Below the pieces are notes generated by a model, which saw only the letters and a program-made list of their open reading frames with translations, searched no databases and had not been told where the DNA came from. DNA of 60,986 nt from an uncultured Selenomonadales bacterium (lineage in GTDB: Bacteria; Bacillota; Negativicutes; Selenomonadales; Selenomonadaceae). Shown here piece by piece: positions 1 to 50,591 of this stretch. Within the stretch, counting starts at the first letter, position 1. Each line of letters begins with the position of its first letter. Both the position numbers and the translations under genes were made by a program. The stretch covers positions 1 to 60,986 of the forward strand of contig CAMJMR010000011.1 in assembly GCA_946407095.1 (NCBI GenBank), given 5' to 3'.

Positions 1-207
1 AACCAATCGCCGCGCTCAAAAGTTTTTACGGGTACATCGGAACAACTTCAAGCCCAACGCCTTCGTAGAAGCCCGCCGGCCGCTTTGAAAGCGGCGGAAC
101 AGATAACGCGGTCAGCTGCTCATAACTTTAACCAATCGCCGCGCTCAAAAGTTTTTACGGGTACATCGGAACAACTTCAAGCCCGACGCCTTCGTAGAAG
201 CCCGCCG
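1..207. repeat. Palindromic element with duplicated argC 3' end
   Basis: Bases 1-78 and 130-207 are the same sequence apart from one base, at an offset of 129. Each copy holds an element tail (about 17 bases with CGCCGCGCT) and the last codons of argC. Between them lies an element head whose perfect palindrome GCCGCTTTGAAAGCGGC is at 79-95, followed by GGAACAGATAACGCG. Only the copy at 130-207 belongs to the intact gene. The left copy runs off the window, so more units may follow outside it. Confidence 0.85.
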
Positions 208-3948: not shown

Positions 3949-4085
3949 CTTAAATCCTTTCTACGGCAAGAGAAATCTTTTCGCCGGCAACGTGACGTTG
4001 CATCCTGTTAGCGCGGTCAAGTTGCCCCGGCCGTAATTATTCGCCGCGCTTAAATCCTTTCTACGGCAAGGGAAATTTTTTCGCC
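3949..4085. repeat. Palindromic element with duplicated ileS 3' end
   Basis: Bases 3949-3986 repeat 4048-4085 (three mismatches), which code for the C-terminus ISLAVERI and stop of ileS. Between them is an element with the palindrome GCAACGTGACGTTGC at 3987-4001, then TTAGCGCGG, and a tail CGCCGCGCTT. The offset is 99 bases. The outer copy supplies the ribosome site of the DUF1919 gene that starts at 3946. Confidence 0.8.
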
Positions 4086-7000
4086 GTTGATGTCCCATTC
4101 CTTGGCGGAGGCGTGCGGCGCGAAGACAATCTCGTTCGCCAACGTGACAGCCATAATCTCAAGCGCGTTGTCCGTCATAAGTCGCGCAAGCTTTTCGTTG
4201 CCCGCCGTGAAAATCTTTATCCTGTCGGTGACTTCAAAATCGCTTTCGCGGCGCATGACCTGCACCTTGCTGATAATTTCGCGGACAAAGCCCTCCTCAA
4301 TCAGCGCGGGCGTCAACGTCGTCGACAAGGCAATCGAAACGTCGCCGTCGCTCTGGCAGTTGAAGTCTTCGCTCTGCGTTATCGTTATCTCAATGTCTTC
4401 CGCCGTCAACGTGATGTCGCCAAGCTTAAGTTCGCCCGTCTTGTCGAGTTCAAGCTTAGCGGCTTGACCGTTCAGACTTTCCAACGCGGCTTTGACTTCG
4501 CCCATGCGCTTGCCGACCTTCTTGCCCAAGACGCGGAAATTCGGCTTGATGTTGTAGCGGATGAACTCGCCCATATCTGCGCGGAATTCGACGCGCTTAA
4601 CGTTCAGCTCGTCGGCGATGATGTCAACGAAGAATTCGGGCAACGCCGCCGCCTTAACGAACATGTCGGCAACGGGTTGGCGATTCTTGATGTTGGAAGC
4701 GTTGCGCGCCGCACGACCAAGCACGACGATTTTCAAAACCGCGTCCATGTTGCGTTCAAGTTCGGCGTCGATAAAGTTTTCGTCGGCTTGCGGGTAGTCG
4801 CACAGGTGAACGCTTTCGGGAGCCGCCGCGTCGATTGAGCAGACCAGGTTGCGATAAATGTTTTCGGTGATAAAAGGCACCATAGGAGCCGCCGCCTTCG
4901 CCAACGTGACAAGCGCGGTGTAAAGCGTCATGTAGGCGTTGATTTTGTCCTGTTCCATGCCTTTCGCCCAGAAACGCGCACGACTGCGGCGCACGTACCA
5001 GTTCGACAGCTCGTCGACAAAATCCTGCAACGCCCGCGCAGATTCGGGGACTTTGTAGTTGGTCAGCGCGTCGTCGACCGTCTTGACCATCGTGTTGAGC
5101 CGCGACAAAAGCCACTTGTCCATGACGCCAAGCTTGTCGTATTCAAGGCGGTATTTCGTGGCGTCGAAGTCGTCAATGTTGGCGTAAAGCACGAAGAACG
5201 CGTAAGTATTCCACAGCGTGCCGAGGAATTTTCGTTGCCCTTCGGTGACCGCGCCGTCGTGAAAACGATTCGGCAGCCAAGGCGCAGAGTTTTCGTAGAA
5301 GTACCAGCGAATGGCGTCCGCGCCGTGCTTCGCCAAAGTCTCCATGGGTGCGACCGCGTTGCCCTTCGACTTCGACATCTTCTGCCCGTCCTTGTCCAAG
5401 ACCAAGCCCAAGACAATGCAATTCTTGAAGGCGGTGTCGTCGAACAGCAACGTCGAAATGGCCATGAGCGAATAGAACCAGCCGCGCGTCTGGTCAACCG
5501 CCTCGCTGATAAAGTCGGCGGGGAAATGCTCCTTGAACGCCTCGACATTCTCGAACGGGTAATGGAATTGCGCGAAAGGCATTGCTCCCGAATCAAACCA
5601 GCAGTCAATGACTTCCGGGACGCGATGCATTTCCTTGCCGCATTTCGGGCACGGGAAGGTTACCGCGTCGATATACGGGCGGTGCAGTTCGATGTCGTCG
5701 GGACAATTCGCCGACAACGACTTAAGCTCGCCGATTGAGCCGATTGAATGCTGATGACCGCATTCGCATTCCCAAATGTTGAGCGGCGTGCCCCAGTAGC
5801 GGTTGCGGCTTATGCCCCAATCCTGCACGTGTTCCAGCCAATCACCGAAACGTCCCTTGCCAATCGTCGGCGGAATCCAGTTGACCTTCGCGTTATTCTT
5901 CAGCAAGTCGTCTTTGACGGCCGTCATCTTGATGAACCACGACTCGCGGGCGTAGTAAATCAGCGGGGTGTCGCAACGCCAACAATGCGGGTAGCTGTGC
6001 TCGAACGGCGGAGCTTTGAACAACTTGCCCGAAGTCTTCAAGTCCTTGAGAATCAACGGGTCGGCGTCCTTGACGAACGTGCCCGCCCAATAAGTTTCAG
6101 CCGTCATGTTGCCCTTGCCGTCGACGAACTGCACGAACGGAATGTCATACTTGCGGCAGACGCGATTATCGTCCTCGCCGAAAGCCGGCGCGCAGTGGAC
6201 GATGCCCGTGCCGTCCTCGGTCGTGACGTAGTCGTCGCAAGTGACGTAATGCGCCGCTTTGCCCGAACGTTTGACAATTTCGTCGGCGAAGGGATAAAGC
6301 GGCTTGTACTTTTTATATTCAAGCTCCGCGCCCTTGCAACGCGCCAAAATTTTGCGCTCGCCGTCGACGCCCTCGAAGACCTTATCGACCAAAGCCTCCG
6401 CCAAAATGTAAATCGTATCGCCGACTTGAATCTTGACGTAATCGACTTTCGGATTGACGCACAGGCAAAGGTTGGAGGGAAGCGTCCAAGGCGTCGTCGT
6501 CCAGGCAAGGAAGTAAGCATCTTCGCCCGCCACTTTGAACTTTACGACCGCCGAACGCTCTTTGACGTCCTTGTAGCCCAAAGCGACCTCGTGACTGGAA
6601 AGCGGCGTTCCGCAACGCGGACAATACGGCACGACCTTGTGACCCTTGTAAAGCAAACCGCGTTCCCAAATCTTTTTGAGCGCCCACCATTCCGACTCGA
6701 TGTAATTATTTTCGTAGGTGATGTAGGGATTGTCCATGTCCGCCCAGTAACCGACAACGCCGCTAAAGTCCTCCCACATGCCCTTGTACTTCCAGACGGA
6801 CTCGCGGCATTTTTTTATGAAGGGCTCCATGCCGTAAGCCTCGATTTGTTCCTTGCCGTTAATGCCGATTAGCTTTTCGACCTCCAGCTCGACGGGCAAG
6901 CCGTGCGTGTCCCAACCCGCCTTGCGAAAAACTTTTTGCCCCTTCATAGAGTGATAGCGCGGGAACAAATCCTTAATGACGCGCGTCAAGACGTGACCGA

Positions 7001-19251: not shown

Positions 19252-19375
19252 CCAAAAGCCGCTTTAAAAGCGGCGGAACAGATAGCGCGCCGTACAGTCA
19301 CTTTAGGAACTAGGAACTGGGAACTAGGAACTAGTTGATACGCTGGCGCATTTCTAGCCCACTAACCGCCGCGCT
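19252..19375. repeat. Palindromic element cluster between acpS and nnr
   Basis: AGCCGCTTTAAAAGCGGCGGAACAGATAGCGCG begins at about 19257 (quoted core palindrome GCCGCTTTAAAAGCGGC). A heptanucleotide array follows at 19305-19334, and then a tail with GCATTTCTAGCCC and CGCCGCGCTT. I see no duplicated gene end here. Confidence 0.75.
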
Positions 19376-23149: not shown

Positions 23150-23854
23150 TCAATACACTCCAGGCATAGCGATAAGCCACGGCTGATTCCGCTCGCTCTT
23201 CGGCAACATGCAATAGTCGAACCACATAAAATAAAACCTGTCGAGGCTGCCAATCGCGTAGCCGTCTTGCTTATGGTCGCCGGTGTCGTAGGGCTCGGCG
23301 AAAATCAGCACGTCGTCATAAAGATTGTCCGCCGTGCCCATTGTGTCGATGCCGATTATAACGCGCCAATGCCCGCCTCATTCGACGTTCTCAACCATAA
23401 TCGGTCTGCCCGCCGCAAGATTCCTCACGACGAACTTTTGAAAGGCGTCTTCGTCCATGGGCGGGCGGTCAAGACTGCTTTGCACCTTCCAGCCGATGTC
23501 GCGGAAAAATTTCAGCATGTTGCTCAAGCTCGTGCCGACACGCGGCTTGAACTTCATGCGCTTAATCAGCGTCGTCTCGTCGAAGTCGCGGTTGCCGTAG
23601 TAATGAAGCACCGTCAAGGCGGCGGCGTTCCCGCAACTGTATTCGGTCGTCTGCTGATAAGTCGGGTAGTGCGGCAAAATGATTCGGGTGTCGGTCGAAG
23701 GCATTTCGTAAAAGTCGGGGTGCGCGTAGTAAATCGAATCGGCGTGATTGATTTCGGCGGGCGCGGCGGCGGCTCCCGACGGCTCTTGTTCTTCCGCGCA
23801 GGCAGTTCCGGTGAACAGCGTCGTCATCAGCGCGGCGATTAAAAATTTTTTCAC
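23150..23854 (-). pseudogene. C39-like exported cysteine peptidase broken by TGA
   Basis: GTG start at 23854 with AAGGAGG, then a signal peptide ending GTACA-EE. The papain-like C39 pattern has its cysteine in TTEYSCGNAAALTVLHYYG. An in-frame TGA stands at 23378-23380. Beyond it the same frame continues GGHWRVIIGIDTMG, with the expected histidine, and FAEPYDTGD, to a TAA/TGA end at 23150. The TGA replaces what is most likely a tryptophan codon (VE-W-GGHW), a single G to A change. As it stands the protein lacks its histidine. The start overlaps the mrnC stop. Confidence 0.7.
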
Positions 23855-24456
23855 GTCGAAGCCTCCTTGAATGCAAGTTCGCAAATCTCGTCGAGACGGA
23901 CAAAATTTTTCCTGAGGAACAGGTCGCCAAGCAGAGCCTCAAAGCCCGTGCTTGCGTGGTATTCGGCAACGGTAGCCTTGCGCGGCGCGTGACTTTTGGC
24001 ATTTCGTCCGCGCCTGAAGATATCGCGTTCGGCGTCGGTCAAAAAATTTTCTATCGCGCGATAAGTCTTTGCCTGCGCGGTCGCCGAGACGATTTGCGCG
24101 CTAAGGTCGTGGAGGCGATTGACGTTGTGAGTGACTTGCAAAAGGCGCGTCCGAACGTACAGATGAAAATACGCGTCGCCGATGTGTGCAAGAATCAAAG
24201 GCGATAGCGTCTTGATTTCGTCGGGCGGGAAGTCAAAGGCGCGGGGGTTTATTGCGGTTGTCGAGTGGTTGACCGCGCTAACTGGATGCAACGTCACGTT
24301 GCCGTCGGGCGGGAAGTCAAAGGCGCGGGGGTTTATTGCGGTTGTCGAGTGGTTGACCGCGCTATCAGGATGCAACGTCACGTTGCCGTCGCCGATGTGC
24401 GCAAGAATCAGCGGGGACAGCGTCTTAATTTCTCCGGCGGCTAGGCTCTGTGCCAT
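23851..24456 (-). CDS. mrnC: Mini-ribonuclease 3 with an in-frame repeat insertion
   Basis: Mini-III trims 23S rRNA in Bacillota and is a single RNase III domain without an RNA-binding part. Here 201 residues are coded, against about 130 in the family. The real domain begins at the second EIKTLSPLILAHIGD and continues AYFHLYVRTRLL; STGFEALLGDLF is the second metal motif. Before it stand a first copy of EIKTLSPLILAHIGD and two 28-residue repeats of GNVTLHP...FDFPPD type, all in frame. The extra 71 residues come from a palindromic element. The gene follows cysS with a 16-base overlap, which is the conserved order. Confidence 0.85.
   Translation of the reverse strand: MAQSLAAGEIKTLSPLILAHIGDGNVTLHPDSAVNHSTTAINPRAFDFPPDGNVTLHPVSAVNHSTTAINPRAFDFPPDEIKTLSPLILAHIGDAYFHLYVRTRLLQVTHNVNRLHDLSAQIVSATAQAKTYRAIENFLTDAERDIFRRGRNAKSHAPRKATVAEYHASTGFEALLGDLFLRKNFVRLDEICELAFKEAST
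24175..24432. repeat. In-frame palindromic element array within mrnC
   Basis: Bases 24175-24219 and 24388-24432 are copies of 45 bases of mrnC, offset 213. Between them are two near-identical 84-base units (24220-24303 and 24304-24387). Each unit ends in the stem GCAACGTCACGTTGC, preceded by GCGCTA, the same head as in the elements near ileS and the symporter. Confidence 0.92.
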
Positions 24457-25973
24457 GTTGCACCTTGCGGCGTGTCTTCGACGATTATGCCCGCCTCCTT
24501 GAGTTCGTGGCGTATCTTGTCGGCCATTACCCAATTTTTCGTGACGCGTGCGCCTTGCCGAATGTTGAGGATGATTTGCATGAGCGCGTTGACAAGTTCG
24601 TCGTCATTGGAAGATTTTTCCGCCTCCTCCGCCTCGACGGGCACGGGCTGCTCGAATATCCCGATTATCGACGCCATTTCCAGATAAATCGCTTGGACGC
24701 GCAAAATTATATCGCCGTCAATCGTCACGGGCAAAATTTCCCCCTTGGCGAAGGCTCCGTAATAGTCGCCGACTTCCTTCGCCAGCTCGAACATGTGAGT
24801 TATCGCCAACGCGGTGTTGAAGTCGTCTTCCATTGCCGCGTAGAAATTCGCAAGCAAACGCTCCGCCACTTCGACCAGCCCGCCCGCAGGGCTTACCGTT
24901 ATCGCGAAATTCTTGTCGCTCGTGTCCTTGACGAATTCGCCCGCGTGAATTTTCCTTGCCAACGTGTCCAGTTGCCAATAAGCCCGCGCCAACTTGCCGA
25001 AGAACTCTTGAGCCTCCTTGACGCGCTCCTCATTGAATTCAAGCGGGTTGCGGTAGTGCGTCTGCAAAAGCAGCAAGCGTATGACTTCGCCGGGATATTT
25101 CGCCAAAACCTCTTCGACTGTGAAAAAGCCCTTGTTGCGCTTGACCATTTCCTTGTTCGACTTGCTGACCTTTTCGTTGCCGTCGGTTATGAAGCCGTTG
25201 TGCACCCAATAGCGCGCGAAAGAATTTTCGTCGCCGATAGCCGCTTGAGACTGCGCGATTTCGTTTTCGTGGTGCGGGAAGATTAAATCGGAGCCGCCGC
25301 CGTGGAAGTCAAATTTTTCGCCCAGATACTTCAACGACATGGCAGAGCACTCGATATGCCAGCCGGGACGCCCTTTGCCCCAAGGACTTTCCCAATAGGG
25401 CTCGTCGGGCTTGGCCGCCTTCCACAAGGCAAAATCCATGGGGTTGCGCTTGCGGTTGTCGACTTCGACGCGCGCGCCCGCCATCATGTCACTAAGCTTG
25501 CGGCCGCTAAGCTTGCCGTAGTTGGCGATTTTCTCGACGCTGTAAAAGACATCGCCGTTATCCAGCACGTAAGCGTAGCCCTTGTCGACCAGCGTTTGAA
25601 TCATTTTGATGATGTCGTCCATTGTGTCGGACACTCGCGGGTAAAAATCTGCGCGGCGGATGTTAAGGGCGTCCATGCTTTTGAAATAGGTTTCGATATT
25701 TTTTTCGGCGACTTCCTTCCATGTGACGCCTTGCGCGTTGGCAGTCTTGATAATCTTGTCGTCAACGTCGGTGAAATTCTGAATGTAGCGGACGGCGTAG
25801 CCCTCCTTTGCGAAAAAACGACGAATGACATCCCACGTCACGAAGGGGCGGGCGTTGCCGATATGCGGCGCGCTGTAGGGCGTCACTCCGCAGCAGTAAA
25901 TGCTGACTTCATTGGGCTTGAGCGGCTTGAAAATTTCTTTCGTGCGGCTCATCGTGTTAAAAACTTTAATCAT
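24441..25973 (-). CDS. cysS: Cysteinyl-tRNA synthetase
   Basis: Charges tRNA-Cys. The protein has 510 residues. The HIGH-type motif is in [14 protein letters not shown], with the zinc cysteine in YCCGVTPY, and the KMSKS-type motif reads KVSKS. A zinc-ligand GWHIECSAM stretch is also present. It lies in the usual cysE-cysS-mrnC order, with a toxin-antitoxin pair and a PHP gene between cysE and cysS. Confidence 0.97.
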
Positions 25974-28740: not shown

Positions 28741-28950
28741 AGTTTCAGCGACGCTCAAGTCTTCGGGCGGCCGCTTTAAAAGCGGCGGAACAGCAAACGC
28801 GCTTTGCCGTTCGATAACTTCAGCCACTCGCCGCGGCCGCTTTAAAAGCGGCGGAACAGCAAACGCGCTTTGCCGTTCGATAACTTCAGCCACTCGCCGC
28901 GCTTCAACGTTTTAATAAAAAAGTTTCAGCAACGCTCAAGTCTTCGGGCG
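28741..28950. repeat. Two palindromic elements with duplicated ispD 3' end
   Basis: Two identical 66-base units (28769-28834 and 28835-28900) each start with GGCCGCTTTAAAAGCGGC GGAACAG and end with CACTCGCCGC. Bases 28741-28769 repeat 28922-28950 of ispD with one mismatch. The left copy, read on the minus strand, continues in frame as ETLLRGEIK and stops with ATGA into ispF, so it looks like the original gene end. Confidence 0.92.
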
Positions 28951-31311: not shown

Positions 31312-32096
31312 AAACTTGCACCGTTCAAGCCGCAGCCGATGCCGTCAATCGCCTCGCGCCGCGCAAACTCGCCGAAGAGTGGGATAATCCCGGACTGTTA
31401 ATCGGCGATCCGTCAGCTGAAGTCAAAAAAATTTTCGTCTGCCTCGACGTGCTCGACGATAAAATTTCGGCGGCTGTCGAACTCGGCGCGCAGTTAATCG
31501 TTGCTCACCACCCGCTGATTTTCCGCGCGATTAAGAACGTCCGCTTCGACTTGCCGCTCGGCAAAAAAATTTCTCGGCTCATCAAAGGCAATGTGGCGGT
31601 TTTCGCGGCGCACACGAACTTGGACAGCGCGGCGGGCGGCGTCAATGACGTGTTGGCTCGCAAGCTGGGGCTCGGCGACGTGAAACCTTTCGACGACGAA
31701 GAAATTTCTATGGGACGGCTCGGCACGCTCGAAACGCCGATGACTGCCGCCGAATTCGCTCGCCACGTGAAAGCCGCTCTAAACGCCGACAACGTCCGAC
31801 TTGTCGACGCGGGCGACTTCAAAATCAGCAAGGTTGGACTTTGCGGCGGCGCGGGCGCAGATTTCATTCAGAAGGCAAAATTTTTCGGGGCGCAAGCGTT
31901 CGTGACGGGCGACGTTAAATATCACGAGGCTCAAGCAGCGGTCGAAAGCGGGATTCACGTCGTCGACGCGGGTCACTTCGCCACGGAATTTCCGATTGTT
32001 CACGAGTTGGCGGAATATCTGCGTGAGGAGCTGAAAAATTTCGACGTTGAAGTTATCGAAGACACGACGGCAAAAGATTTCTTCACGACGGTTTAA
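31308..32096 (+). CDS. Nif3-like dinuclear metal centre protein
   Basis: Protein of 262 residues of the Nif3/YbgI family (also named GTP cyclohydrolase 1 type 2 homolog). Metal ligands are visible in IVAHHPLIFRAI and FAAHTNLDSA, and near the end in VVDAGHFATE. Function is not settled. The ATG overlaps the cobK stop by four bases. The last 70 bases of the gene are duplicated downstream. Confidence 0.93.
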   Translation: MKTCTVQAAADAVNRLAPRKLAEEWDNPGLLIGDPSAEVKKIFVCLDVLDDKISAAVELGAQLIVAHHPLIFRAIKNVRFDLPLGKKISRLIKGNVAVFAAHTNLDSAAGGVNDVLARKLGLGDVKPFDDEEISMGRLGTLETPMTAAEFARHVKAALNADNVRLVDAGDFKISKVGLCGGAGADFIQKAKFFGAQAFVTGDVKYHEAQAAVESGIHVVDAGHFATEFPIVHELAEYLREELKNFDVEVIEDTTAKDFFTTV

Positions 32097-32273
32097 GCGC
32101 GGCGAGTGGCTGAAGTTATCGGACGTTGAGGCGCGTTATCTGTTCTGCCGCTTCTAAAGCGGCCGCGGGGAGCTGAAAACATTCGACGTTGAAGTTATCG
32201 AAGACACGACGGCAAAAGATTTCTTCACGACGGTTTAAGCGCGGCGAGTGGCTGAAGTTATCGGACGTTGCAA
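32028..32273. repeat. Palindromic element with duplicated Nif3 3' end
   Basis: Bases 32028-32131 and 32170-32273 are copies (two mismatches, offset 142) that contain the last codons of the Nif3 gene, its stop and an element tail GCGCGGCGAGTGGCTGAAG. Between them is the element head with GCCGCTTCTAAAGCGGC (32147-32163). The copy at 32170 has no start and is not a gene. Confidence 0.9.
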
Positions 32274-33205: not shown

Positions 33206-33256
33206 GATAAAGGAAACGTTATCGCCGCGCCAGAACGCAACGCTAGCGCATTGCTA

Positions 33257-33522
33257 GGGTCTGTTGGTAAATTAACGAAGACGTTGCAAGGGACAGAGGC
33301 CGCCAAGGATGGCGGCCGCCGGCAACAAAAACATGGAAGTTTTTTTGCCGGCACAAGCGGCTTCGGGTTGCGCGGACGCTGGACAAGTGATCGGTTTCCG
33401 CCCCTGCGAGGGGTCTTTTCTTTTGCAACTTTTCTTTGGACAAGCAAAGAAAAGTTGATTCTAAATACAAAAGGTATCGAAACGCCGAATCAGAATCACC
33501 AATTCAATTTACCAACAGCCCC
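33257..33522 (+). mobile_element. MITE copy 2
   Basis: 266 bp from GGGTCTGTTGGTAAATT to its imperfect complement, flanked by TA on both sides (33255-33256 and 33523-33524). It differs from copy 3 at only three positions. Inside are a strong hairpin GGCCGCCAAGGATGGCGGCC and an AT-rich right part. Apparent reading frames within it are not conserved as proteins in copy 1. Confidence 0.9.
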
Positions 33523-33534
33523 TAGTTGTACCGT

Positions 33535-34527: not shown

Positions 34528-36066
34528 ATGAAAGTTGTACTGTTGGTTTTGTATTTCGCGGTGCTGATAGGCATAGGGCTCTACTGCCGCAAGCACGCCA
34601 CTGACGTCGACGGCTTTGTCTTGGGCGGGCGCAATGTCGGCGCGTGGCTGACGGCTTTCGCTTACGGCACGAGTTATTTTTCGGCGGTCGTGTTCGTCGG
34701 CTACGCGGGGCAGTTCGGTTGGAAGTACGGCATTGCGGCGACGTGGGCGGGCATCGGCAATGCGCTAATCGGCTCGCTTATGGCGTGGTTTATCTTGGGC
34801 AGGCGCACGCGCGTCATGACTCGCCACCTCGACACCGCTACCATGCCGCAGTTCTTTGAAAAGCGATTCGGCTCGCCGTCTCTGAAAATCGGCGCGGCGA
34901 TTATAATTTTTATCTTCATGATACCCTACACCGCCTCGCTTTACAACGGGCTTTCAAGGCTGTTCGGCATGGCGTTCAGCATTGACTATTCGGTTTGCAT
35001 TTTGCTTATGGCGGTCTTGACGGCGGTCTACGTCATAGCGGGCGGCTACATGGCGACGGCGATTAACGACTTCATTCAAGGCGTCGTGATGTTGGCAGGT
35101 ATATCGGCGGTCATCTACGCGGTGCTTGAGTCGAAGGGCGGCTTCGTTGCGGCTCTCGACGGCTTGGCTCGAATCACCGACGACAAAGTTTCGTCGACGC
35201 CGGGGATATTCGCGTCGTTCTTCGGCACCGACCCGCTGAATTTGCTTTTCGTCGTGATTTTGACTTCGCTGGGCACGTGGGGCTTGCCGCAGATGGTTCA
35301 GAAGTTCTACGCGATAAAAAACGAACAGGCGATTCAAAAGGGCACAGTCATATCGACGCTGTTCGCGTTCGTGGTGGCGGGCGGTTGCTACTTCCTGGGC
35401 GGCTTCGGGCGGTTGTTCTCTGACCAAATCGACATTGCGGCGAATGGTTACGATTCGGTCGTCCCGACGATGTTGAGCGGATTGTCGGAGGGCATGATTG
35501 CCTTGGTCGTGATTTTGGTCTTGTCGGCGTCAATGTCAACGCTGTCGTCATTGGTTATCGTCTCGGCGTCGACTTTGACGCTCGACTTGATAAAAGACAA
35601 TTTCGTCAAGGGAATGAGTGACGCTCGGCAAGTGCTGATGATTCGGGGCTTGGTCGTCGTGTTTATCGCGATATCGGCGGTGCTTGCGCTTGTCCAGTAC
35701 AAAAGCTCGGTGAATTTTATCGCGCAGCTCATGGGCATATCTTGGGGCGCGATGGCGGGCGCGTTCCTTGCGCCGTTCATGTATTCGCTTTATTCGAAAA
35801 AAGTCACGACGGCGTCTTGCTGGGCGTGCTTTATCTTCGGCAGCGTGCTAATGACGGCGAACATGTTGGCGCGTCCGCTGTTCCCCGCTATCATGCAGTC
35901 GCCGATAAATTCGGGCGCGATAGCGATGCTTGCGGGCTTGTTGATTGTCCCGATAGTCAGCGCGATAACTTCAAAGCCCGACGAAAAGCTTGTTGACCAT
36001 GCGTTTAAGTGCTATGAAGAGAAAATCCTTGTGCCGCTCAGCACGTCACTTAATAGCGAAAAATAA
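34528..36066 (+). CDS. Sodium:solute symporter (SSS family)
   Basis: Membrane protein of 512 residues with about 13 helices. The start reads MKVVLLVLYFAVLIGIGLY, followed by DVDGFVLGGRNVGAWLTAFA, typical of the sodium/solute symporter family. The transported solute cannot be told from the sequence. The start at 34528 has TGGAGG upstream. The stop region is duplicated downstream. Confidence 0.9.
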   Translation: MKVVLLVLYFAVLIGIGLYCRKHATDVDGFVLGGRNVGAWLTAFAYGTSYFSAVVFVGYAGQFGWKYGIAATWAGIGNALIGSLMAWFILGRRTRVMTRHLDTATMPQFFEKRFGSPSLKIGAAIIIFIFMIPYTASLYNGLSRLFGMAFSIDYSVCILLMAVLTAVYVIAGGYMATAINDFIQGVVMLAGISAVIYAVLESKGGFVAALDGLARITDDKVSSTPGIFASFFGTDPLNLLFVVILTSLGTWGLPQMVQKFYAIKNEQAIQKGTVISTLFAFVVAGGCYFLGGFGRLFSDQIDIAANGYDSVVPTMLSGLSEGMIALVVILVLSASMSTLSSLVIVSASTLTLDLIKDNFVKGMSDARQVLMIRGLVVVFIAISAVLALVQYKSSVNFIAQLMGISWGAMAGAFLAPFMYSLYSKKVTTASCWACFIFGSVLMTANMLARPLFPAIMQSPINSGAIAMLAGLLIVPIVSAITSKPDEKLVDHAFKCYEEKILVPLSTSLNSEK

Positions 36067-36179
36067 TCGGGCTAGCAATGCGCAGCGTTGCGTATGGACG
36101 CGGGTGTTACTTCGAATTATCGTAACGTTGGAGCGCGACATCTGGATGCAACGTCACGTTGCCAGCGAAAAATAATCGG
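36055..36179. repeat. Palindromic elements with short duplication of the symporter end
   Basis: AGCGAAAAATAATCGG occurs at 36055-36070 and again at 36164-36179 (offset 109). In between are the second-type stem (GCTAGCAATGCGC/GCGTTGCG at 36072) and the head stem GCAACGTCACGTTGC (36147-36161). Confidence 0.85.
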
Positions 36180-37692: not shown

Positions 37693-37729
37693 AAAAAAGC
37701 GGCGGTCTCAATTGAGGCTACCGCTTTTT
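37693..37729 (-). terminator. Probable terminator of truB
   Basis: AAAAAGCGG (minus strand) pairs with CCGCTTTTTT, with a loop holding a second small stem. The MITE inserted directly at its edge, which pushed it 270 bp away from the truB stop. Confidence 0.7.
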
Positions 37730-37730
37730 A

Positions 37731-37996
37731 GGGTCTGTTGGTAAATTAACGAAGACGTTGCAAGGGACAGAGGCCGCCACGGATGGCGGCCGCCGGCAAC
37801 AAAAACATGGAAGTTTTTTTGCCGGCACAAGCGGCTTCGGGTTGCGCGGACGCTGGACAAGTGATCGGTTTCCGCCCCTGCGAGGGGTCTTTTCTTTTGC
37901 AACTTTTCTTTGGACAAGCAAAGAAAAGTTGATTCTAAATACAAAAGTTATCGAAACGCCGAATCAGAATCACCAATTCAATTTACCAACAGCCCT
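37731..37996 (+). mobile_element. MITE copy 3
   Basis: 266 bp with TA on both sides, nearly identical to copy 2 (three differences, one at the very end). Same inverted ends and hairpin. It lies between truB and its terminator. Nothing else is found in 37635-38004. Confidence 0.92.
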
Positions 37997-38004
37997 TAAT
38001 ATGT

Positions 38005-48688: not shown

Positions 48689-48720
48689 CTTGTTCCTTGT
48701 TCCTTATTCCTTGTTCCTTA
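48689..48720. repeat. Heptanucleotide microsatellite
   Basis: Four units of CTTGTTC type, directly abutting the TAA stop codon of the transglutaminase-like gene. Confidence 0.75.
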
Positions 48721-50256: not shown

Positions 50257-50591
50257 GCTGTCGACAACCACCTAATCTCGCGCAATTCGGCAACCAGATT
50301 ATCTTTGAGCTTAGCCTCCAGCTCGTCAAGAATTTTGGCGTCGAAGGCGTAAACCACTTGCGGCGGCAACGTGACGGCCACTTTAAAAGTGGCGGAACAG
50401 ATAGCGCGCCGTGCCATTTGTGATTCAAAGGCTGTCGCCGCGCCGATACAAAATGCCTGAGCATTTCTAGCCCAAAATCATCGTGCTTGACAATCGCCTA
50501 ATCTCGCGCAACTCGGCAACCAGATTGTCTTTGAGCTTAGCCTCCAGTTCGTCCGTGGTTTTGGCGTCGAAGGCGTAAATTACTTGCGGTG
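50257..50591. repeat. Palindromic element with duplicated 3' end of the 50.5-kb gene
   Basis: Bases 50257-50365 repeat 50483-50591 with several mismatches (offset 226) and code, on the minus strand, for about 35 residues ending REIRWLSTA and TAA. Between are the head stem GCCACTTTAAAAGTGGC (50374-50390) and the second stem with GCATTTCTAGCCC. The old gene end therefore lies downstream. Confidence 0.88.

Follow-up and report, generated by a model that had tools for sequence, protein, structure and literature searches.

Background

Small palindromic repeats of bacteria are usually thought to be moved by REP or MITE transposases, which leave either no duplication or a short one of fixed length. 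SINE-like elements, which are moved by target-primed reverse transcription (TPRT), have one fixed end, one variable end and a target duplication of variable length.

Rickettsia palindromic elements (RPEs) are about 150 bp long, with 44 integrations in R. conorii, and eleven of twelve RPE homologues elsewhere are in frame, as described in the available part of PMC10969869; the RPE sequences of R. conorii end in CGTC (PMC3733652, available in part). Yeast mitochondrial GC clusters are small mobile hairpins that can merge and shuffle, have stems that are more constrained than their loops and are flanked by AG or ACT repeats (PMC4478555, available in part).

Here, we describe a hairpin element that lies in frame within mrnC, the gene encoding Mini-RNase III, of a rumen bacterium. 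In the reading that we consider probable, a hairpin element of the Quinella group, mobile but non-autonomous, inserted into mrnC shortly behind the start of the gene, by an insertion process that often duplicates a long and variable stretch of the target. Literature on bacterial palindromic elements, RPEs, MIRU, hairpin mobile elements and Quinella genomes contained nothing like this element in titles and the beginnings of abstracts, and a search of the same scope, with the subscription literature mostly outside, found no description of a long variable target duplication for RPEs or intragenic REPs. The sequence GCAACGTGACGTTGC was not found in the literature text searched, and the words 'palindrom', 'transpos' and 'mobile' were absent from the available text of the Quinella genome paper PMC9585023.

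The mrnC gene contains an in-frame insertion

The window (the whole stretch of DNA analysed, 60,986 nucleotides) is part of a metagenome-assembled genome (MAG) of 2.6 Mb in 101 contigs that is 89% complete (G000). Relatives of its mrnC include three Quinella sp. MAGs (L040, L047, L050) and other Selenomonadaceae and Selenomonadales MAGs, many of them from ruminants, and these relatives suggest that G000 belongs to the Quinella group or genus. The mrnC gene is encoded on the minus strand (23851..24456) and shares its first bases with the end of cysS (24441-25973). Its reading frame extends without interruption from 5' of the ATG (24456) to the stop at 23851. The identification of the host gene as mini-RNase III in a first-pass annotation of this DNA is borne out by a match to the RNase III domain PF00636 (residues 89-183, E 1.4e-21) and by an alignment to a solved Mini-ribonuclease 3 (PDB 4oun).

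In reading direction, the start and first codons are followed by an upstream (left) copy of duplicated host codons encoding EIKTLSPLILAHIGD (24388..24432), a first 66-nt hairpin element with a GGCAACGTGACGTTGCATCC head at its 5' end (24322..24387, encoding GNVTLHP...NPRA), 18 nt of host sequence that encode FDFPPD and are repeated along with the element (24304..24321), a second 66-nt hairpin element (24238..24303), FDFPPD again as the beginning of the downstream host copy (24220..24237) and the downstream (right) EIKTLSPLILAHIGD copy (24175..24219), which runs on into the RNase III domain; all these features are on the minus strand. The same annotation had described a pair of 84-nt units and a duplicate of 15 host codons, together adding 71 residues in frame, which is correct to the base (2 x 84 + 45 = 213 nt = 71 codons), and the two units (24220-24303 and 24304-24387) are also found by TRF (period 84, 97% matches, score 332). 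It had further claimed that the 84-base unit recurs outside genes: there is indeed recurrence, with copies outside genes, but the true recurring unit has only 66 nt. The remaining 18 nt, TTTGACTTCCCGCCCGAC, belong to the host sequence, as the insert-free mrnC of L044 encodes NFPPD at this position, and this rules out a plain 84-nt mobile unit.

The two host copies have 84% DNA identity across 51 nt; their 15 codons encode the identical peptide and have six differences, all silent. Judged from these sequences, the host duplication was probably about 63 nt long originally and the upstream copy has since been partly eroded. The alignment to 4oun begins at residue 74, which is the downstream FDFPPD, and, given this position and that of the PF00636 match, the downstream host copy is the one within the domain and the residues preceding it are an extension. 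The predicted mrnC product has thus gained an N-terminal extension, with the whole RNase III domain preserved by the downstream host copy.

Anatomy and copies of the element

With the entire mrnC insert as query, 50 matches were found in G000, and its 20-nt head GGCAACGTGACGTTGCATCC has 87 exact occurrences in this genome (45 + 42), compared with none for a reversed-pattern control. The window and 20 fetched stretches of G000 (255 kb) contain 44 element copies. These start with the GGCAACGTGACGTTGCATCC head (stem GCAACGT/ACGTTGC), mostly followed by GATAGCGCG, a variable body and CCGCG; long forms have an extra second hairpin with CTAGC at its end. The family has therefore one fixed end, the 20-nt head, and a variable far end. 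MITEs have terminal inverted repeats; in the present family, one end is a self-paired hairpin, the other is variable, and the second hairpin at the end of the long forms is a different one.

Further copies in the window are an H1 element (3986..4048, plus strand) between 38-nt direct repeats (3949-3986 and 4049-4086), a long-form H1 element with the second hairpin (36071..36163, minus strand) between 16-nt direct repeats (36055-36070 and 36164-36179), and two tandem 66-nt copies with the H2 head GCCGCTTTAAAAGCGGC (28767..28898, plus strand). A stretch with the H2 hairpin head GCCGCTTTGAAAGCGGC (79..129, plus strand) lies between 78-nt direct repeats (1-78 and 130-207) and is an array, since these repeats contain the element's own tail.

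Similar bodies are also preceded by alternative heads, namely GCCGCTTTAAAAGCGGC, GCCACTTTAAAAGTGGC, CAAGCGTGACGCTTG, CAAGCTTGAAGCTTG and GGTTACTTT...AAAGTAACC, in which changes on one arm are compensated on the other. A head-free search of the fetched stretches with six bodies identified 43 places, a few of which may be chance matches: 28 have an exact H1 head, one has an H1 head with one change and 14 have no H1. A perfect stem of at least 6 bp is present in the head window at 41 of these 43 places, in comparison to 249 of 4000 random windows. Folding energies give the hairpin little support (z from +0.32 to -2.18 for 12 RNA folds of single copies and from -0.14 to -1.45 for four DNA folds); the case for a hairpin rests on the 41 paired heads with their several different stems.

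At the drift rate of the flanks, about 21 head changes would be expected in 29 isolated copies and none was observed, a count biased by the choice of loci by head or element match (L290-L309 by exact head match, most others by BLAST to the element); the body-only search, in which 28 of 29 H1-type heads are exact, is less so. There were no gathering-level matches to Rfam families in the four sources scanned (the window, L055, L058 and L060), ruling out a known Rfam RNA as the identity of the element.

The window has several other repeats: a pair of 270 nt with 99% identity, 4.5 kb apart (33255-33524 and 37729-37998), duplicated stretches near elements with other hairpin heads (32022-32270, 96%, and 50263-50589, 88%) and two 7-nt tandem repeats of 4.4 copies each (19304-19334, TAGGAAC, and 48689-48719, CTTGTTC).

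Host DNA flanking the elements is often duplicated

At many elements, the left and right flanks are copies of each other. A score of at least 26 is reached by 30 of 41 elements (the 44 listed minus three near stretch ends, arrays included) when the left repeat is made to stop at the head; in the same stretches, which are rich in elements, 15 of 600 random positions do so. For a stricter count, 89 heads were used, 43 from G000 stretches and 46 from stretches of seven other genomes; all these genomes are multi-contig assemblies and the named ones are MAGs. Thirty clustered heads, with another head within 350 nt, were set aside, leaving 59 isolated ones. At a score threshold of 32, a direct repeat abuts 29 of them (15 in G000, 14 in other genomes), while the other 30 (11 in G000, 19 in other genomes) have no flanking repeat. 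In G204, only 4 of 11 heads attain a score of 26. The duplication of host sequence, reported by the first-pass annotation for the mrnC insert, is thus real and also common in the family rather than peculiar to the mrnC copy.

The direct repeats at the 29 isolated heads are 16-158 nt long (median 41), unlike the short target duplications of fixed length left by MITEs. The repeat runs directly up to the head in 25 of the 29, and both of its copies end in G in all but one of these (24 of 25). As an alignment must end in a match, we firmly claim only that these 25 of the 29 have a matching base from the target at the joint; the joint G could partly be the element's own base. At L073, the repeat spans the ribosome site and the gene start (METKNIIIVGVGG), and with such a repeat the downstream gene remains whole.

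A search for repeat-insert-repeat structures with no head requirement, in stretches most of which had been picked for H1, returned 43 structures. Twenty were tagged H1 or H2; of the remaining ones, nine had by eye a part head or lay in element arrays and 14 had neither, mostly in repetitive proteins.

The sequences are from metagenome assemblies, and the host copies in mrnC differ silently, as they might if an assembly had fused two strains. We consider such an artefact very improbable, because seven assemblies have a related structure in mrnC and such structures are also seen at many loci of several genomes.

A second type of repeat (TGAAAGTCG... with a body containing CCCGCTTT-AAAGCGGG, or TTTCTTTG...CAAAGAAAGTAG) is found around some H1 heads, and a part of it is matched many times in G061. 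It occurs near H1 heads without flanking repeats at L057, L062, L066, L070 and L072 and, at L073, upstream of the element.

Empty sites in relatives

Nine relatives were searched for empty sites with the outer flanks of ten loci, joined around a single repeat copy, and with the L066 locus minus its element. Six of these 11 loci, elements included, were also compared with 25 fetched loci of relatives. At four of the six (L068, L059, L074 and the window locus at 3949, for which four relatives' loci show the empty site), both repeats map to one single stretch and the element is absent. L062 and L066 have no rows in this comparison, the relatives' loci matching L066 being outside the fetched set; in the joined-flank search, L062 and L066 are covered across the joint, and L058, L061, L064, L069 and L073 on one side only. 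In none of the 25 relatives' loci is there an H1 head, even when up to two mismatches to its 15-nt hairpin are allowed. Flanking repeats at 29 of 59 isolated heads and empty sites with one repeat copy indicate that it is often the insertion that duplicates the target, over a long stretch of variable length.

Candidate machinery and proposed mechanism of insertion

Genomes were searched for reverse transcriptases (RVT_1, PF00078) and for the transposase family Y1_Tnp (PF01797). Among 14 genomes of the genus, RVT_1 is found in five (G012, G016, G021, G022, G035) and was not found in G000, G003, G006, G014, G023, G028, G029, G033 and G034. Four of nine further entries have it (G300, G312, G060 and G061, with G312 and G060 looking like one genome); it was not found in G204 (99% complete, 40 heads), G294, G305 (94%) and G326. 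Element carriers are therefore found both with RVT_1 (G016, G021, G035, G300, G312) and with none detected (G000, G204, G294, G305, G326, G014, G023, G029). Y1_Tnp is present in one of the 14 genus genomes and was not found in G000. With this patchy presence, neither family is a general companion of the element within these incomplete genomes, and a resident reverse transcriptase is ruled out in this role, as RVT_1 was not found in several carriers.

With PF01797 not found in G000 and present in one of 14 genus genomes, we also reject an identity as a RAYT-type REP. Like intragenic GTAG/CGTC REPs, as described in the available part of PMC3733652, the element is a short stem-loop repeat with some copies inside genes; by eye, the H1 head reads GG-hairpin-ATCC in the copies listed and has no GTAG/CGTC end tag. 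REP-type transposition by a RAYT/IS200-IS605 transposase, with the host duplications arising later by recombination, would account for short palindromic heads in high copy number, for intragenic copies and for the lack of a repeat at half of the isolated heads, but we regard it as improbable: the repeats, where present, usually abut the head exactly, and the transposase family was found in one of the 14 genus genomes searched, not in G000. REP transposition is not known to duplicate its targets, and long target duplications set the element further apart from REPs.

With its fixed and variable end and variable target duplication at 29 of 59 isolated copies, the element resembles SINE/TPRT retroelements; it differs in being bacterial and in that reverse transcriptase was not found in several carriers, which are incomplete genomes. 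Target duplications of SINEs are usually shorter than those seen here. In the mechanism that we propose, a nick after a G would free a 3' end of the target, from which the element would be copied, head first. A break in the other strand, 16-158 nt further upstream, would follow the pattern of target-primed copying or of a template switch, and fill-in would produce the long host duplication. In mrnC, the element (66 nt, or 22 codons) and the duplicated host stretch have kept the frame, and the element is doubled in tandem along with 18 host nt.

Template switching during replication may act with no dedicated enzyme: a stalled 3' end would jump to a hairpin copy elsewhere, copy it and then return to a point further upstream; the result would be host sequence duplicated in tandem, its two copies joined through the hairpin. 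Duplications of 16-158 nt with a variable far end, the existence of arrays of element and host sequence and the failure to find a reverse transcriptase or Y1 transposase in G000 all fit such events, and we consider them a realistic possibility, clearly below an even chance. They are less easily reconciled with a head end that is exact to the base in 25 of 29 isolated repeat-flanked copies; random filler would also be expected, and only 14 of the 43 repeat-insert-repeat structures lack a head or a link to an array.

mrnC insertions across relatives

The mrnC of related genomes was aligned, and a GNVTLHP-type insert is present in seven of 38 distinct mrnC starts read (G000, L010, L011, L012, L014, L041, L042). 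The remaining 31 are insert-free, with typical starts of M..LNFPADEIKTLSPL or MEESLIKTLSPL. Against its own reading, the first-pass annotation had named an insert in all relatives at equal divergence or an intact second mrnC; with 31 insert-free starts and no second mrnC found in G000 (a single mrnC match in a MAG that is 89% complete), neither is the case.

In a tree of the mrnC core and cysS, insert carriers are scattered and five of the seven (G000, L010, L011, L012, L042) have insert-free nearest neighbours, with several branches weakly supported; the sister group of L014 is mixed and L041 has no close neighbour. One ancient insertion, lost many times through recombination between the host copies, is an alternative to repeated insertion that we place somewhat below even probability. 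The downstream junction is the same in all seven inserts, give or take one codon, and insert-free 'MEESLIKT' starts resemble scars of such losses. However, the upstream junctions differ (after HIGD, HVGD, HIG, HSGD, PLIL, FPP and EIK), the heads are identical in six of seven inserts, and the two L010 host copies differ at only 3 of 39 sites and share changes absent from L047. Across these 39 nt, copy-to-copy differences are 6 in G000, 3 in L010, 7 in L011 and 7 in L012, and the upstream copies are 5 differences from L044 (G000) and 5 from L017 (L012). The L010 copy pair looks younger than the L010/L047 split (3 versus 7-8 differences), while those of G000, L011 and L012 look, by these sequence distances, about as old as the species splits.

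Another conceivable reading is that the insert was retained because it alters Mini-RNase III activity. The presence of an insert in seven starts and the silent nature of all G000 host-copy differences would fit retention, which we nevertheless regard as quite unlikely, as 31 of 38 starts lack the insert and the upstream copies of L010, L011, L012, L014, L041 and L042 have lost codons or changed residues.

Copies in other genes

Copies inside other genes were sought, as the first-pass annotation had proposed, and in-frame examples were found in the FlhF protein of L067 (TIGR03499 above cut-off), at residue 152 in an open frame of 664 codons, and in an MBL-fold protein of L066 (PF00753 above cut-off), at residue 171 out of 302. 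A third in-frame copy is at a contig end, in a fragment weakly like the start of DusB (L063). The 543-codon frame of L055, which matched no family, is unlikely to be a gene. When the 22-residue peptide was searched, 15 of the rows listed were in frames of at least 200 codons, some running through stops; most were not.

The likeness to RPEs, suggested by the first-pass annotation, is a likeness of effect, namely of in-frame insertion. Like RPEs as described in the available part of PMC10969869, the element is palindromic, has many copies and is in frame within unrelated genes (mrnC, FlhF, MBL-fold); unlike RPEs, it has 66-95 nt, a 20-nt head common to several species and a long variable host duplication, which that part of the source does not mention for RPEs. 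In its way of working it resembles the yeast GC clusters, which are small mobile hairpins too (PMC4478555, available in part). In position, the mrnC copy is like MIRU of mycobacteria: the cysS stop overlaps the mrnC start, and the copy comes right after this overlap.

Distribution and copies on viral contigs

Long-form DNA was found in 19 of 60 genomes (G000 included); all 19 belong to the genus, represented by 37 genomes. Of the 300 genomes in a class sample, the exact head is present in 12 of 24 genus members (G000 included) and in none of 276 non-genus genomes; in a phylum sample it is present in 1 of 398 genomes, G000 only.

The exact head also occurs in IMG/VR, in 19 stretches on 17 contigs (among L125-L143) whose G+C ranges from 37 to 63%; a reversed 20-mer and one with an altered stem, used as controls, had 0 and 0 occurrences. 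These viral heads stand without the Quinella body, and several of them read QRDVAS in an open frame. The best local repeats around them score 15-27, with no separate control, and only one abuts the head (score 17, 11 nt); there is therefore no clear target duplication at viral heads. In the terminase of L132 (PF03354, PF20441), the head lies within a 14-residue insert that is absent from 27 of 29 aligned relatives (of 79 other loci); the two others have other inserts. In the L130 terminase (PF05876, PF20454), the insert that contains it is longer: 27 of 62 relatives were aligned, of which six have a longer stretch there, 13 do not and eight have no usable alignment. By eye, L130 (623-2638) has two palindrome-like inserts (QRDVAS... 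and ...DATSRC) corresponding to the two head orientations. No exact full head was found in named phage and plasmid collections, where the nearest match is a Microviridae record (MH572465, 20 of 21 bases, E 0.8) and the rest are partial.

Significance

More tentatively, the element may represent a class of hairpin-headed mobile elements, present in Quinella and in viruses of other uncultured hosts, that copy themselves head first from a target 3' end; their landing would duplicate tens of host bases and could spare the target gene, and old copies would retain an unchanged 20-nt head even as their body and flanks drift. The head is identical in different Quinella species and also occurs in viral contigs whose G+C differs widely, which raises the question of what keeps a 20-nt hairpin unchanged. 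The 29 isolated insertions with long variable duplications contrast with what is expected of REP or MITE transposition, and the mechanism of insertion is testable, as four loci have empty sites in relatives. A duplicated flank can rebuild a gene start, which bears on how such elements may enter coding genes harmlessly.
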